From assembly GCF_944390845.1 (NCBI RefSeq), contig NZ_CALXRM010000020.1:1-49803 (forward strand): 49,803 nucleotides of DNA. The letters run 5' to 3'. Made by a program: the position numbers and the translations under genes. Each line of letters opens with the position of its first letter. Position 1 is the first letter of the stretch. Under the pieces are notes generated by a model that was not told where the DNA came from, ran no database searches, and worked only from the letters and a program-made list of their open reading frames with translations. The stretch comes from an uncultured Brachyspira sp. Its GTDB lineage: Bacteria > Spirochaetota > Brachyspiria > Brachyspirales > Brachyspiraceae. Below, piece after piece: positions 19,671 to 49,799 of this stretch.

Positions 19671-20954
19671 ATGTATAATATAGCCCAATTAAAAGAATTA
19701 CTACAAGATAAAAAAATGGATGAAAAATTTTCCTCAATTTATGGAGGAGATGAAAAAAGCATATCTGAAGCTTATGGAAGATTATCAGACACTATAAAAC
19801 ACTTTGAAAACATTGATAAAAGTCAAGAAGTATATTTATTTAGTGCTTCTGGAAGAACTGAGTTATCAGGAAACCATACTGACCATAATAACGGCTGTGT
19901 ATTAACTGCCTCTATCAATTTAGATAAATTAGCATTAGTTGCTAAAAGAAATGATAATAAAATAGTAGTTTATACAGATTATTCCAATAATCCTGATGTG
20001 ATAGATGTAAATAATTTAGAATTAGACAAAGATGAATACGGCAAATCAAATGCTTTAATAAGAGGTGTTTGTGCCGGAATAAAAAATAAAGGTTATCAAG
20101 TAGGAGGCTGTACAGTATCATTAAATAATAAAGTTTTAATGGGAAGCGGATTAAGCAGTTCTGCTAGTTTTGAATCTTTAATTGGTGAAATACAAAATGC
20201 CTTATACAATGATAATAAACTAAGCCCTGTTGAAATAGCAAAAATAGGTCAATATGCTGAAAATGTTTATTTTGGTAAGCCTTGCGGACTTATGGATCAA
20301 ATGGGATGTTCTGTAGGCGGAATTATGTCTATAGACTTTAAAGATAACGACAACCCTATTATAGAAAAAGTTGAATATGATTTTGAAAAAGCTGGTTATG
20401 CTTTGATGATAGTAGATGCTAAAGGTGACCATAGCGGACTTACAAATGAATATGCTGCTATAAGAGAAGAAATGAATGCTATAGCTAATTACTTCGGTAA
20501 AAAAGTGTGCAGAGATATCACTAAAGAACAATTATTAGAAAATGCTTCAAAATTAAGAGCTGAAATCGGAGACAGAGCTGTAATGAGAGCTTATCACTTC
20601 TTAGAGGAAAATGAAAGAGTAATAAATCAAATTAACGCTTTAAAAAATAATGATATCAATACATATTTAAAACTTATGAATGAATCAGGACTTTCAAGCT
20701 TTATGTATTTACAAAACTGTTTCTCTATTACAAGTTCTAAGAGTATGGGAGTTGCATTAGGTATATGCTTAACAAAAGATTTCTTAAAAGGTGAAGGTGC
20801 TTGCCGTGTACATGGAGGCGGTTTTGCTGGAACTATACAAGCTTTAGTACCTGTAAACAGAGTTGATGAATACAAAAAGTTTATGGATTCTATATTCGGA
20901 GATGGAAGTGCTGTAAAAATAAGAGTAAGACAATCTCCTGTATGTGAAATCTAA
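19671..20954 (+). CDS. galK: Galactokinase
   Basis: GalK phosphorylates alpha-D-galactose at C1 with ATP, the first committed step of the Leloir pathway, in the cytoplasm. The 427-residue protein has the GHMP-kinase set. The galactokinase signature is GRTELSGNHTDHNNG, a variant of the usual GRVNLIGEHTDYN. The ATP loop is MGSGLSSSASFE, and the C-terminal GGGFAGTIQA motif follows a CRVHGG. GKPCGLMDQM holds the catalytic-region Asp. The start is well placed (AGGATTAAGT before ATG). No galT or galE is adjacent. Another GHMP sugar kinase is conceivable, but the His-Thr-Asp-His motif favours galactose. Confidence 0.9.
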   Translation: MYNIAQLKELLQDKKMDEKFSSIYGGDEKSISEAYGRLSDTIKHFENIDKSQEVYLFSASGRTELSGNHTDHNNGCVLTASINLDKLALVAKRNDNKIVVYTDYSNNPDVIDVNNLELDKDEYGKSNALIRGVCAGIKNKGYQVGGCTVSLNNKVLMGSGLSSSASFESLIGEIQNALYNDNKLSPVEIAKIGQYAENVYFGKPCGLMDQMGCSVGGIMSIDFKDNDNPIIEKVEYDFEKAGYALMIVDAKGDHSGLTNEYAAIREEMNAIANYFGKKVCRDITKEQLLENASKLRAEIGDRAVMRAYHFLEENERVINQINALKNNDINTYLKLMNESGLSSFMYLQNCFSITSSKSMGVALGICLTKDFLKGEGACRVHGGGFAGTIQALVPVNRVDEYKKFMDSIFGDGSAVKIRVRQSPVCEI

Positions 20955-20977
20955 TATATATTAAAATACAATAAAAT

Positions 20978-21014
20978 AAAGAGGCAAGGTAAAATTTTAC
21001 TTTGTCTCTTTTTT
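20978..21014 (+). terminator. Intrinsic terminator of galK
   Basis: AAAGAGGCAAGGTAAAA pairs with TTTTACTTTGTCTCTT (two mismatches), followed by a run of T. Confidence 0.85.
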
Positions 21015-21033
21015 ATTATAAATATTTTTTGTT

Positions 21034-21320
21034 TATACCAAAAATTTTTAACTTTGTCAACTGATACACTTTATATAAATGTTATCAACTTTTTGCCGCA
21101 CAAAAAAAGTTTTTATCCTTCGTATACGCTACGCGAAAAACGCAATTGCTAGAACTTTATATTAAAAACATGCCTATTAAATATATGGTATATCCTATAA
21201 AAATGCAGTTCTTTTGGTTCTTTTATACCAATAAAAGAACTGGGGTATGGGGCAAAGCCCCAGATATAAAAACAAAAATATAAATTTATTTTTGACAAAA
21301 TATAGTTGTTTAGGTATATA
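21034..21320. repeat. Dispersed promoter-ended repeat, copy A
   Basis: About 287 bp, non-coding. The left end (about 21033-21060) and right end (21292-21320) are imperfect inverted repeats. Each reads outward as TTGACA, 17 bp, then TATAAA (left, reverse) or TATATA (right, forward). The core contains a hairpin made of AGTTCTTTT and AAAAGAACT and the short stem GGGGCAAAGCCCC. The right end merges with the left end of copy B through a shared TATATA at 21315-21320. No open reading frame in it looks real. Confidence 0.75.
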
Positions 21321-21662
21321 CTAAAAATTTTTAAGTTTGTCAATTGAGGCACTTTATCTAAATTTTATCTACTTTTTTGTCGCACAAAAAAGTAGCAAAA
21401 AAAGCAATTTCTAGAATTTTATATTTGAAAAATACTTATTAAATATAGGATATAACCTAATTTATATTAAAAATGCAGTCTTTCGCGAAGCGTATCCGAG
21501 CCTGTCGAGGATATAGGTTCTCGCCGAAGGCGGGCTGTGCCTTATGCCAATACTTACAGTACTTCCTTCGATCGCAAAAGAACTGGGGTTTGGGGCAAAA
21601 CCCAAAATATAAAACCAAAACATAAATTTATTTTTGACAAAGTATATTTGTTTAGGTATATA
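21315..21662. repeat. Dispersed promoter-ended repeat, copy B (head-to-tail with A)
   Basis: About 348 bp. The left end 21315-21343 and right end 21634-21662 match those of copy A, including both outward TTGACA-N17-TATATA promoter-like arrangements. The first third of the core follows copy A. The middle carries extra GC-rich modules at 21483-21585, including TTCGCGAA, TATCC...GGATA and CGCCGAAGGCG stems. The right promoter points toward the acetyltransferase gene 196 bp downstream. The remaining gap 21663-21857 is AT-rich and featureless to me. Confidence 0.75.
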
Positions 21663-21857
21663 TTAAAATTTAATAAAATAAAGACAAAATAATATTTTCA
21701 TTATAATACTTTTTATTTAATCATTTTTTAGTTTAGTATAAAAATATATTAGTACTAAATCATACCAAATAAATATTTATTATTTTTTTCACAATTATAT
21801 TTGCTATAATTAAAAAATAGTATATAATCGGACTATTCAAAGTATAAGAGGTTTTCT

Positions 21858-22421
21858 ATGATTAAATTAATAGAAATGAAAGATAATTTACAAAATAAAG
21901 AATTTTACAGAAATTTATATAATGATGCTTTTCCTCCTGAAGAAAGATGGAATTTTGATATGACATTAGAAAATAAAGATAATCATAATTATAAATTTTA
22001 TGCTATATTAGATGATGATACTCCAATCGGTTTAACTATGCTTTGGGATTTAGAAGATTTTAATTACGGTGAATATTTAGCTATAGATAAAAATTTAAGA
22101 GGCAAAAAATACGGCTCTGAAGTATTAACAAAGATATTGGATATACTAAAAAATAAACTTATAGTTATAGAAGTAGAACCTTATGATTTAGATGAAATAG
22201 CAAGAAAACGCATAGAATGGTATAAACGTTTTGGTCTTATATTAGCAGAATATGATTATGATATGCCTTGTATTGATAAAAGCAACAATATATCAACCAT
22301 GAAAATGAAAATCATGACAAGCAGAGAAATACAAAGCAAAGAAGAACATGATAATATAACATCAATAATATACAAAAAAGTATATAAGCCGAGATTAGAT
22401 GAACTTGATAAATGGAGATAA
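21858..22421 (+). CDS. GNAT-family N-acetyltransferase
   Basis: The 187-residue protein has the GNAT fold: a strand ending in YGEYLAID, then the acetyl-CoA pyrophosphate loop RGKKYGSEVL (an R-x-x-x-x-G form of motif A), and a helix-strand-helix that follows (LIVIEVEPYD, then RIEWYKRFGLILAEYDY, the typical late strand with an aromatic-rich bulge). These enzymes acetylate amines of small molecules or proteins; the acceptor cannot be told. AGAGG before the ATG is a fair ribosome binding site. It is monocistronic, downstream of the two dispersed repeats, whose right-hand promoter could drive it. Confidence 0.82.
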   Translation: MIKLIEMKDNLQNKEFYRNLYNDAFPPEERWNFDMTLENKDNHNYKFYAILDDDTPIGLTMLWDLEDFNYGEYLAIDKNLRGKKYGSEVLTKILDILKNKLIVIEVEPYDLDEIARKRIEWYKRFGLILAEYDYDMPCIDKSNNISTMKMKIMTSREIQSKEEHDNITSIIYKKVYKPRLDELDKWR

Positions 22422-41326: not shown

Positions 41327-41396
41327 TTTTATAAAGCAATAGACTTGTCTTAGAACTTTTAAATATATTGGTAATAATTATAGTATTTAAATTTTA

Positions 41397-41580
41397 TAAT
41401 GGGGCTTTGCCCACCGCGAAGCGTACCCGTAGGGTAACACCCTACTTCTTTTACCGACGCTCTGCGTGCCATAGGCAAGGTACCTTTCGGTATTGGTATA
41501 AGGCGAAACCCGCCTGCGGCGAGAAGATATATCCTCAACAGGCTCGGATACGCTTCGCGAAGAACCGCATTTTTAAATAC
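41397..41580 (-). repeat. Dispersed repeat fragment, copy D (inverted, ends missing)
   Basis: From about 41490 to 41570 this is the reverse complement of the GC-rich centre of copy B. Shared words include GGCTCGGATACGCTTCGCGAA and the CGCC...GGCG stem, read here as 20 bases or fewer (GGCTCGGATACGCTTCGCGA). The left part (GGGGCTTTGCCC) matches the end of the copy A and B core in reverse. The promoter-like tails found on copies A-C are absent. Any reading frame across it is an artefact of its higher GC content. Confidence 0.75.
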
Positions 41581-49461: not shown

Positions 49462-49799
49462 TATATACTGAAAATTTTTAAGTTTGTCAAAAAATACAAT
49501 TTTAAATTTAGGTTATTTGCGGGGACTACCCCCACCGCTCTGCGTACTTCGTAACACCACCAGTTCTTTTGCGACTGAAAGGGAGTGCCTGTGGCGTGGC
49601 ACAAAGAACCAAAAAGACTAAATTTTAACCTAAATTTTAGGTATTACCATAAATTTAATACATATTGTAATAATATAAGGTTGTAGTATTTGCGTTTTTT
49701 GCAACTTTGACGAAGTCCGCAGAGCGTGTGCGTCAAAAAAGTTGATAATACATCTGCCAAGATATCAAAATTGACAAAATATAGTTGTTTAGGTATATT
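49462..49799. repeat. Dispersed promoter-ended repeat, copy C (core inverted)
   Basis: About 338 bp, ending 4 bp before the window edge. The left end 49462-49490 and the right end 49771-49799 match the ends of copies A and B in the same orientation. Each again reads outward as TTGACA, 17 bp, then TATATA or TATATT. The core between them runs the other way: the reverse complement of 49690-49770 (TTATCAACTTTTTTGACGCA) matches what follows the left end of copy A (TTATCAACTTTTTGCCGCA). The GC-rich part at 49515-49610 lies at the left here but at the right in A and B. Confidence 0.72.

Follow-up and report, generated by a model that had tools for sequence, protein, structure and literature searches.

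The nearest described case to the repeats reported here is that of RUP and IS630-Spn1 in the pneumococcus (PMC2229807). RUP of Streptococcus pneumoniae is 107 bp in size, has 9-bp terminal inverted repeats (TIRs), inserts at TA, and occupies some 100 or more sites between genes (PMC2229807). The repeats of Brachyspira are likewise short non-coding elements whose ends resemble the ends of an IS630-family insertion sequence in the same genome (IS630-Spn1 in the case of RUP) and which probably insert at TA, whereas they differ from RUP in their size (240-430 bp), in the length of their ends (about 28 bp), in their variable interiors and in having three freely recombining end types. ISY100 of Synechocystis, a member of the IS630/Tc1/mariner group, encodes a transposase with an N-terminal helix-turn-helix (HTH) and a C-terminal DDE domain between inverted repeats (PMC2170065); in experimental tests this IS630-type element inserted almost only at TA, which it duplicates (PMC2170065). 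An HTH and DDE transposase, inverted repeats and, probably, insertion at TA are common to ISY100 and the Brachyspira element. However, ISY100 is complete and tested, whereas its Brachyspira counterpart is known from a decayed copy and from contig ends, and favors a longer target with a TATATA core.

Two further families bear on the promoter-like appearance of the ends. The Correia elements (NEMIS) of Neisseria are abundant MITEs with 5'-TA termini, TIRs of about 24 bp, proposed promoters and an IHF site (PMC2229807). The Brachyspira repeats are similar in their abundance, terminal TA, TIR length and promoter-like ends, and different in sequence, length and host. MITEAba12 of Acinetobacter (113 bp, 9-bp duplication, parent ISAba12) has putative outward sigma-70 promoters at both ends, and transcripts were seen from one end (PMC6382973). 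The Brachyspira repeats share with it the outward sigma-70-like ends and a similarity to the putative parent insertion sequence that seems limited to the TIRs; they differ in length, duplication, end sequences and parent, and their promoter-like ends are predictions from sequence. Outward promoter activity also has precedent in other insertion sequences (PMC9330008). In the literature searched, no paper was found to connect IS630 with Brachyspira or to describe such repeats. Based on the comparisons below, the three copies A, B and C studied here very probably belong to a Brachyspira MITE family that is mobilized in trans by a transposase of the IS630 (Tc1/mariner) family.

Copies, ends and distribution of the repeats

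The stretch of DNA analyzed here (the window; 49,803 nucleotides) is contig C20 of a 3.43-Mb Brachyspira genome in 133 contigs, and contains copies A (21032-21319), B (21315-21661) and C (49462-49798), whose features are listed in Table 1. Among named records, the proteins nearest to the GalK encoded in the window are those of Brachyspira. A preliminary description of the window had reported that every end, read outward, gives TTGACA, exactly 17 bp, and then TATAAA, TATATA or TATATT, and this was reconfirmed for all six ends. The same description had discounted the presence of terminal inverted repeats, but the ends are true, if imperfect, terminal inverted repeats: the six are copies of two homologous inverted-repeat ends (L and R), and six independent events are ruled out. 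No ORF of 100 aa or more was found within copy A or B, and Rfam gave no match at any of the three copies. Copy B had no BLAST match among plasmids and phages, and IMG/VR scans with the right end and with the transposase N-terminus were likewise negative.

Table 1. Positions of repeat copies and neighboring features in the window
Feature	Positions	Strand	Remarks
Terminator-like hairpin downstream of galK, before copy A	20978-21011	+	
Copy A left (L-type) inverted-repeat end with flanking TA	21032-21060	+	outward TTGACA-17-TATAAA
Putative TA target duplication, left of copy A	21034-21035	.	by analogy with the empty/filled comparison and the end profile
MITE copy A (TAC...GTA), L-type left end and R-type right end	21036-21316	+	putative limits
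Copy A right (R-type) inverted-repeat end	21292-21319	+	outward TTGACA-17-TATATA
Copy B left (L-type) end with flanking TA	21315-21343	+	
TA common to copies A and B (fused junction)	21317-21318	.	
MITE copy B, adjoining A in the same orientation	21319-21658	+	putative limits
Copy B internal hairpin CTACTTTTTTGTCGCACAAAAAAGTAG	21368-21394	+	fold of copy B, z-score -2.7
Copy B internal G+C-rich module	21467-21553	+	inverted counterpart without ends at 41490-41576
Copy B right (R-type) end	21634-21661	+	outward TTGACA-17-TATATA; 197 bp before acetyltransferase gene
Acetyltransferase gene's own promoter-like site	21801-21828	+	TTGCTA-16-TATAAT
MITE copy C (L- and R-type ends)	49466-49795	+	putative limits

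In the whole 3.43-Mb genome, the right-end pattern gave 294 matches and the left-end pattern 250 at up to three mismatches, and a reversed control pattern gave none under the same conditions; the repeats are far above chance expectation. BLAST of copy B hit 107 places in this genome. The length between paired left and right ends is mostly 240-430 bp, and the elements, being short, non-coding, dispersed and high in copy number, have the properties of MITEs. A search for the ends throughout the genus with a count of copies and neighbors had been proposed in the preliminary description; as run, it recognized right ends in 22 of 26 Brachyspira genomes, at 0 to 294 copies per genome, and none of the family ends in 270 other genomes of the phylum, among them two other genera of the family Brachyspiraceae.

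The ends were scored in 80 stretches around copies together with the window, giving 103 left and 137 right ends (240 in total). The nearest end pairs were L-R in 77 cases, R-R in 12, M-R in 11 and L-L in three, and the end types combine freely. M is a third end type (outward GTGCAGTAGTCGGCAAAATGAAATCGTTTCAGTATATA) with the same register as R, but in which TCGGCA replaces TTGACA; its flank (AGTCGGCAAAATGAAATCGTTTCAG) had been considered as a repeated target, a candidate that was dropped on the basis of the interior and register. Inside the elements, the hairpin CTACTTTTTTGTCGCACAAAAAAGTAG followed by CAAAAAAAGC is seen in many copies, with variants that preserve the pairing (CAACTTTTTTGTGCGGCAAAAAAGTTG). 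A G+C-rich stretch at 41380-41580 of the window resembles an inverted interior of copy B without ends and has small palindromes, such as TTCGCGAAGCGTATCCGA; mini-hairpins of this kind occur inside many of the MITEs and give the impression of a mobile module of their own.

Fused neighboring copies have one TATATA in common, in several end combinations and orders. Arrays with such a common 6-bp core could be formed by site-specific recombination cassettes, integron- or dif-like, in which the TATATA junctions serve as recombination cores. However, most of the copies stand alone at dispersed places in the genome, ends are joined in several orientations, and identical ends bound an IS630-type DDE transposase gene, on whose discovery the cassette idea was abandoned as extremely improbable.

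An IS630-type element with the same ends and its target

Many contigs of the window's assembly stop inside one common sequence. Inward from the L end, these contig ends show the start of a gene (..TTGTATAATAATAATATGGATTTTAATTTAACAGACGAAGAAATA.., MDFNLTDEEI...), and inward from the R end they show the end of a gene (...ELSIALAENFHLFEN*), whose stop codon TGA lies inside the TTGACA of the end. The gene tail is found on about 20 contig ends with an identity of about 96-100%, as is expected of a collapsed, recently active multicopy insertion sequence, and genome G024 has a like pattern of contig ends with the gene tail. Because the assembly breaks at the insertion sequence and its MITEs (contig ends L191-L209), no complete autonomous copy was found in the window's genome. 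A decayed full element of 1.06 kb with ends as in the MITEs was found in genome G015 (L215:515-1575). Its decayed frames contain an N-terminal HTH and the stretches FFMDDVH and ICYNARYY...NLNLIE, in which 34 residues separate E from the second acidic position, where Y now stands for D. The frames match DDE_3 (1.5e-10) and NCBIfam transpos_IS630 (3.5e-12; a partial match below the NCBI full-length cut-off). In its HTH, DDE_3 domain and D(34)E spacing, with Y for D, the partner gene is thus of the IS630-transposase family. The decayed G015 copy is the one match to Pfam DDE_3 across the genus, and none of the genomes searched contained an intact transposase in its assembly. Before the gene start, the left-end motif of the insertion sequence, inward TTGTCA-17-TATAAT, is probably the transposase promoter, as predicted from its sequence; in the outward direction the motif yields the pattern noted in the preliminary description.

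The L and R ends, about 28 bp each, are thus common to the 240-430-bp repeats and the 1.06-kb element, and because they bound a gene with DDE_3 and transpos_IS630 matches, the repeats are taken as MITEs of the IS630-type element. By eye, similarity between the MITE interiors and the insertion sequence is not evident beyond the ends, so that the parentage rests on the ends and the MITEs may be of type II, with other sequences placed between the ends. Together with the lack of an intact transposase in the genomes searched, this limited similarity fits an alternative in which another transposase with TA-rich targets moves the MITEs and the IS630 copy has acquired similar ends through exchange. 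That alternative is highly improbable: both end types are common to the two kinds of element over their full length, and insertion-sequence copies and MITEs are both abundant in the window's genome.

Movement is recorded at the orthologous site L044, which is filled in the window's genome and in G022, G023 and G011, and empty in G007 and G009 (also in G012, G013 and G021, where the alignment is less clean). The empty sequence is GGTTTATTTATCATAA, against GGTTTATATATACC...CAGTATATCATAA when filled; G007 reads straight through GCAGGTTTATTTATCATAA, against the filled GCAGGTTTATATATACC...CAGTATATCATAA. The simplest reading is a TAC...GTA element that would have duplicated a TA, and TATA fits equally at this one clean site. 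The suggestion of a mobile element in the preliminary description was correct. At this TA site (L044:1281-1640, and L237, L238 and L240), the element of the window's genome has the opposite orientation to that in the three other species in which the site is filled; it could have been inverted in place between its ends, or a further insertion could have hit the same target. A clean empty site was not obtained at L062, L076 and L091, where the joined flanks are too diverged. For copies A and B near galK, no empty site was alignable in the Brachyspira genomes with species names, because other genes come after galK in those genomes.

The position profile of 157 isolated ends shows the inner two TA at 99% and the outer TA at 87/94%, with R, A, T and T preferred further outward. 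The preferred target is therefore palindromic around TATATA, and of the promoter-like -10, two bases belong to the element, two are the target TA and two come from the preferred flank. Several ORFs end a few bases from the edge of an element (L062:1303-1601, L064:1271-1577, L067:1329, L070:1276, L086:1267 and L091:1645), since stop codons are contained in TTTTAA/TTTTAG, the preferred target flank.

By comparison with the IS630/Tc1 family, the N-terminal HTH of the transposase would bind the inner TTTGTCAA of each end, the enzyme would cut next to TAC...GTA, and the ends would be joined to TA within the preferred target TTTTAR-TATATA-YTAAAA with duplication of the TA. TTGACA is the conserved inner motif read on the opposite strand, and at the right end of the insertion sequence this hexamer includes the TGA stop of the transposase gene; TATATA would consist of a TA of the element, the target TA and a preferred flanking TA. 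On this mechanism, the constant 17-bp spacing would result from the fixed length of the end, and the sigma-70 look from a transposase-recognized end joined to a TA-rich target. Since TTTGTCAA is nearly palindromic, it resembles a -35 box in both directions.

Promoter-like character of the ends

The preliminary description had read the ends as sigma-70-like promoters, possibly under selection, on the ground that the two hexamers are conserved while the spacer varies. That statement came from a comparison of left with right ends; within each end type the spacer is conserved at least as well as the -35 hexamer. Mismatches per site in the -35, the spacer and TATAT(A) were 6.2, 3.1 and 2.0% in right ends and 6.1, 4.7 and 3.1% in left ends, in a sample picked by similarity to the consensus, a selection that acts equally on all sites. 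Five other Brachyspira genomes provided 86 diverged right ends, in which the corresponding values were 7.5, 4.7 and 4.0 mismatches per site. The comparison of hexamers with spacer, which had been set beforehand, thus went against the promoter reading in the case of the -35 (6.2% vs 3.1% for R; 6.1% vs 4.7% for L), and the low mismatch rate of TATATA is predicted by a transposon terminus joined to a TA target.

The neighborhood of the elements points in the same direction. For 63 elements with clear neighbors, 42 of the 126 ends face the 5' side of a gene and 84 the 3' side (P = 2e-4), so that no enrichment upstream of genes in the sense orientation was found, and the surrounding gene pairs are convergent in 25 cases, tandem in 34 and divergent in only four. 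Insertions seem to gather at the 3' ends of genes. TTGACA is exactly preserved in 180 of the 240 ends, and not significantly better in sense-facing ends (35/41) than in antisense-facing ends (74/95; P = 0.36).

These results bear on the proposal that the ends are kept as outward sigma-70 promoters, the repeat being kept or spread by delivering promoters or antisense transcripts to its neighbors. All six window ends fit TTGACA-17-TATAWW, about 75% of the 240 ends retain the exact TTGACA, about nine ends in the sense orientation are no more than roughly 50 bp away from the gene start that they precede (e.g. L076, L094, L101, L105 and L109), and outward promoters are known in other MITEs such as MITEAba12 (PMC6382973). 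However, the -35 hexamer has accumulated more changes than the spacer, the M-type end has TCGGCA instead of TTGACA, ends are depleted before gene starts, TTGACA is no better kept where it faces a gene in sense, and the -10 is largely target sequence that straddles the insertion point. We therefore regard this proposal as very improbable. The promoter-like ends are not evidence of dispersed promoters, but very probably transposase recognition sequences joined to a TA target, and outward promoter activity is possible but incidental.

Consensus matching alone tells little in this DNA because it is very A+T-rich: a generic promoter scan of 20900-21900, whose -10 rule excludes TATATA, found five sites against 7.5 expected by shuffling. 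As first described, the right end of copy B faces the acetyltransferase gene, at a distance of 197 bp, but this gene has its own promoter-like site (Table 1), of which AGTATATAATCGGAC is conserved in G009, G022 and G024, all without copies A and B. Viewed as a whole, the earlier interpretation is partly supported.

Some of the sense ends (L076:3770, L094:1742, L101:1787, L105:1330 and L109:948) lie 26-50 bp upstream of genes and might act as promoters. That a sizeable minority of all ends are active outward promoters, and that a handful 26-50 bp upstream (e.g. L076, L094, L101 and L105) have replaced the native promoter, seems unlikely, although the chance is appreciable; if true, the TTGACA-17-TATATA end built into this transposon family would rewire expression genome-wide.

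Consequences for Brachyspira genomes

Brachyspira gains an abundant transposon family that was not found described in the literature searched; by our estimate, about 290 copies would make up about 2.6% of the window's genome. The elements break short-read assembly and supply homologous sites for rearrangement. The genome paper of B. pilosicoli has tied mobile elements to rearrangements (PMC3532143). Gene order is broken at copies A and B (window positions 20954-21858): they lie between galK and the acetyltransferase gene, and in those relatives in which both genes could be placed, the two are on different contigs or at a great distance from each other. Chromosomal rearrangement by recombination between dispersed copies would be expected to leave such a break. 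The family also illustrates that an inverted repeat joined to a TA-rich target can mimic a perfect promoter.
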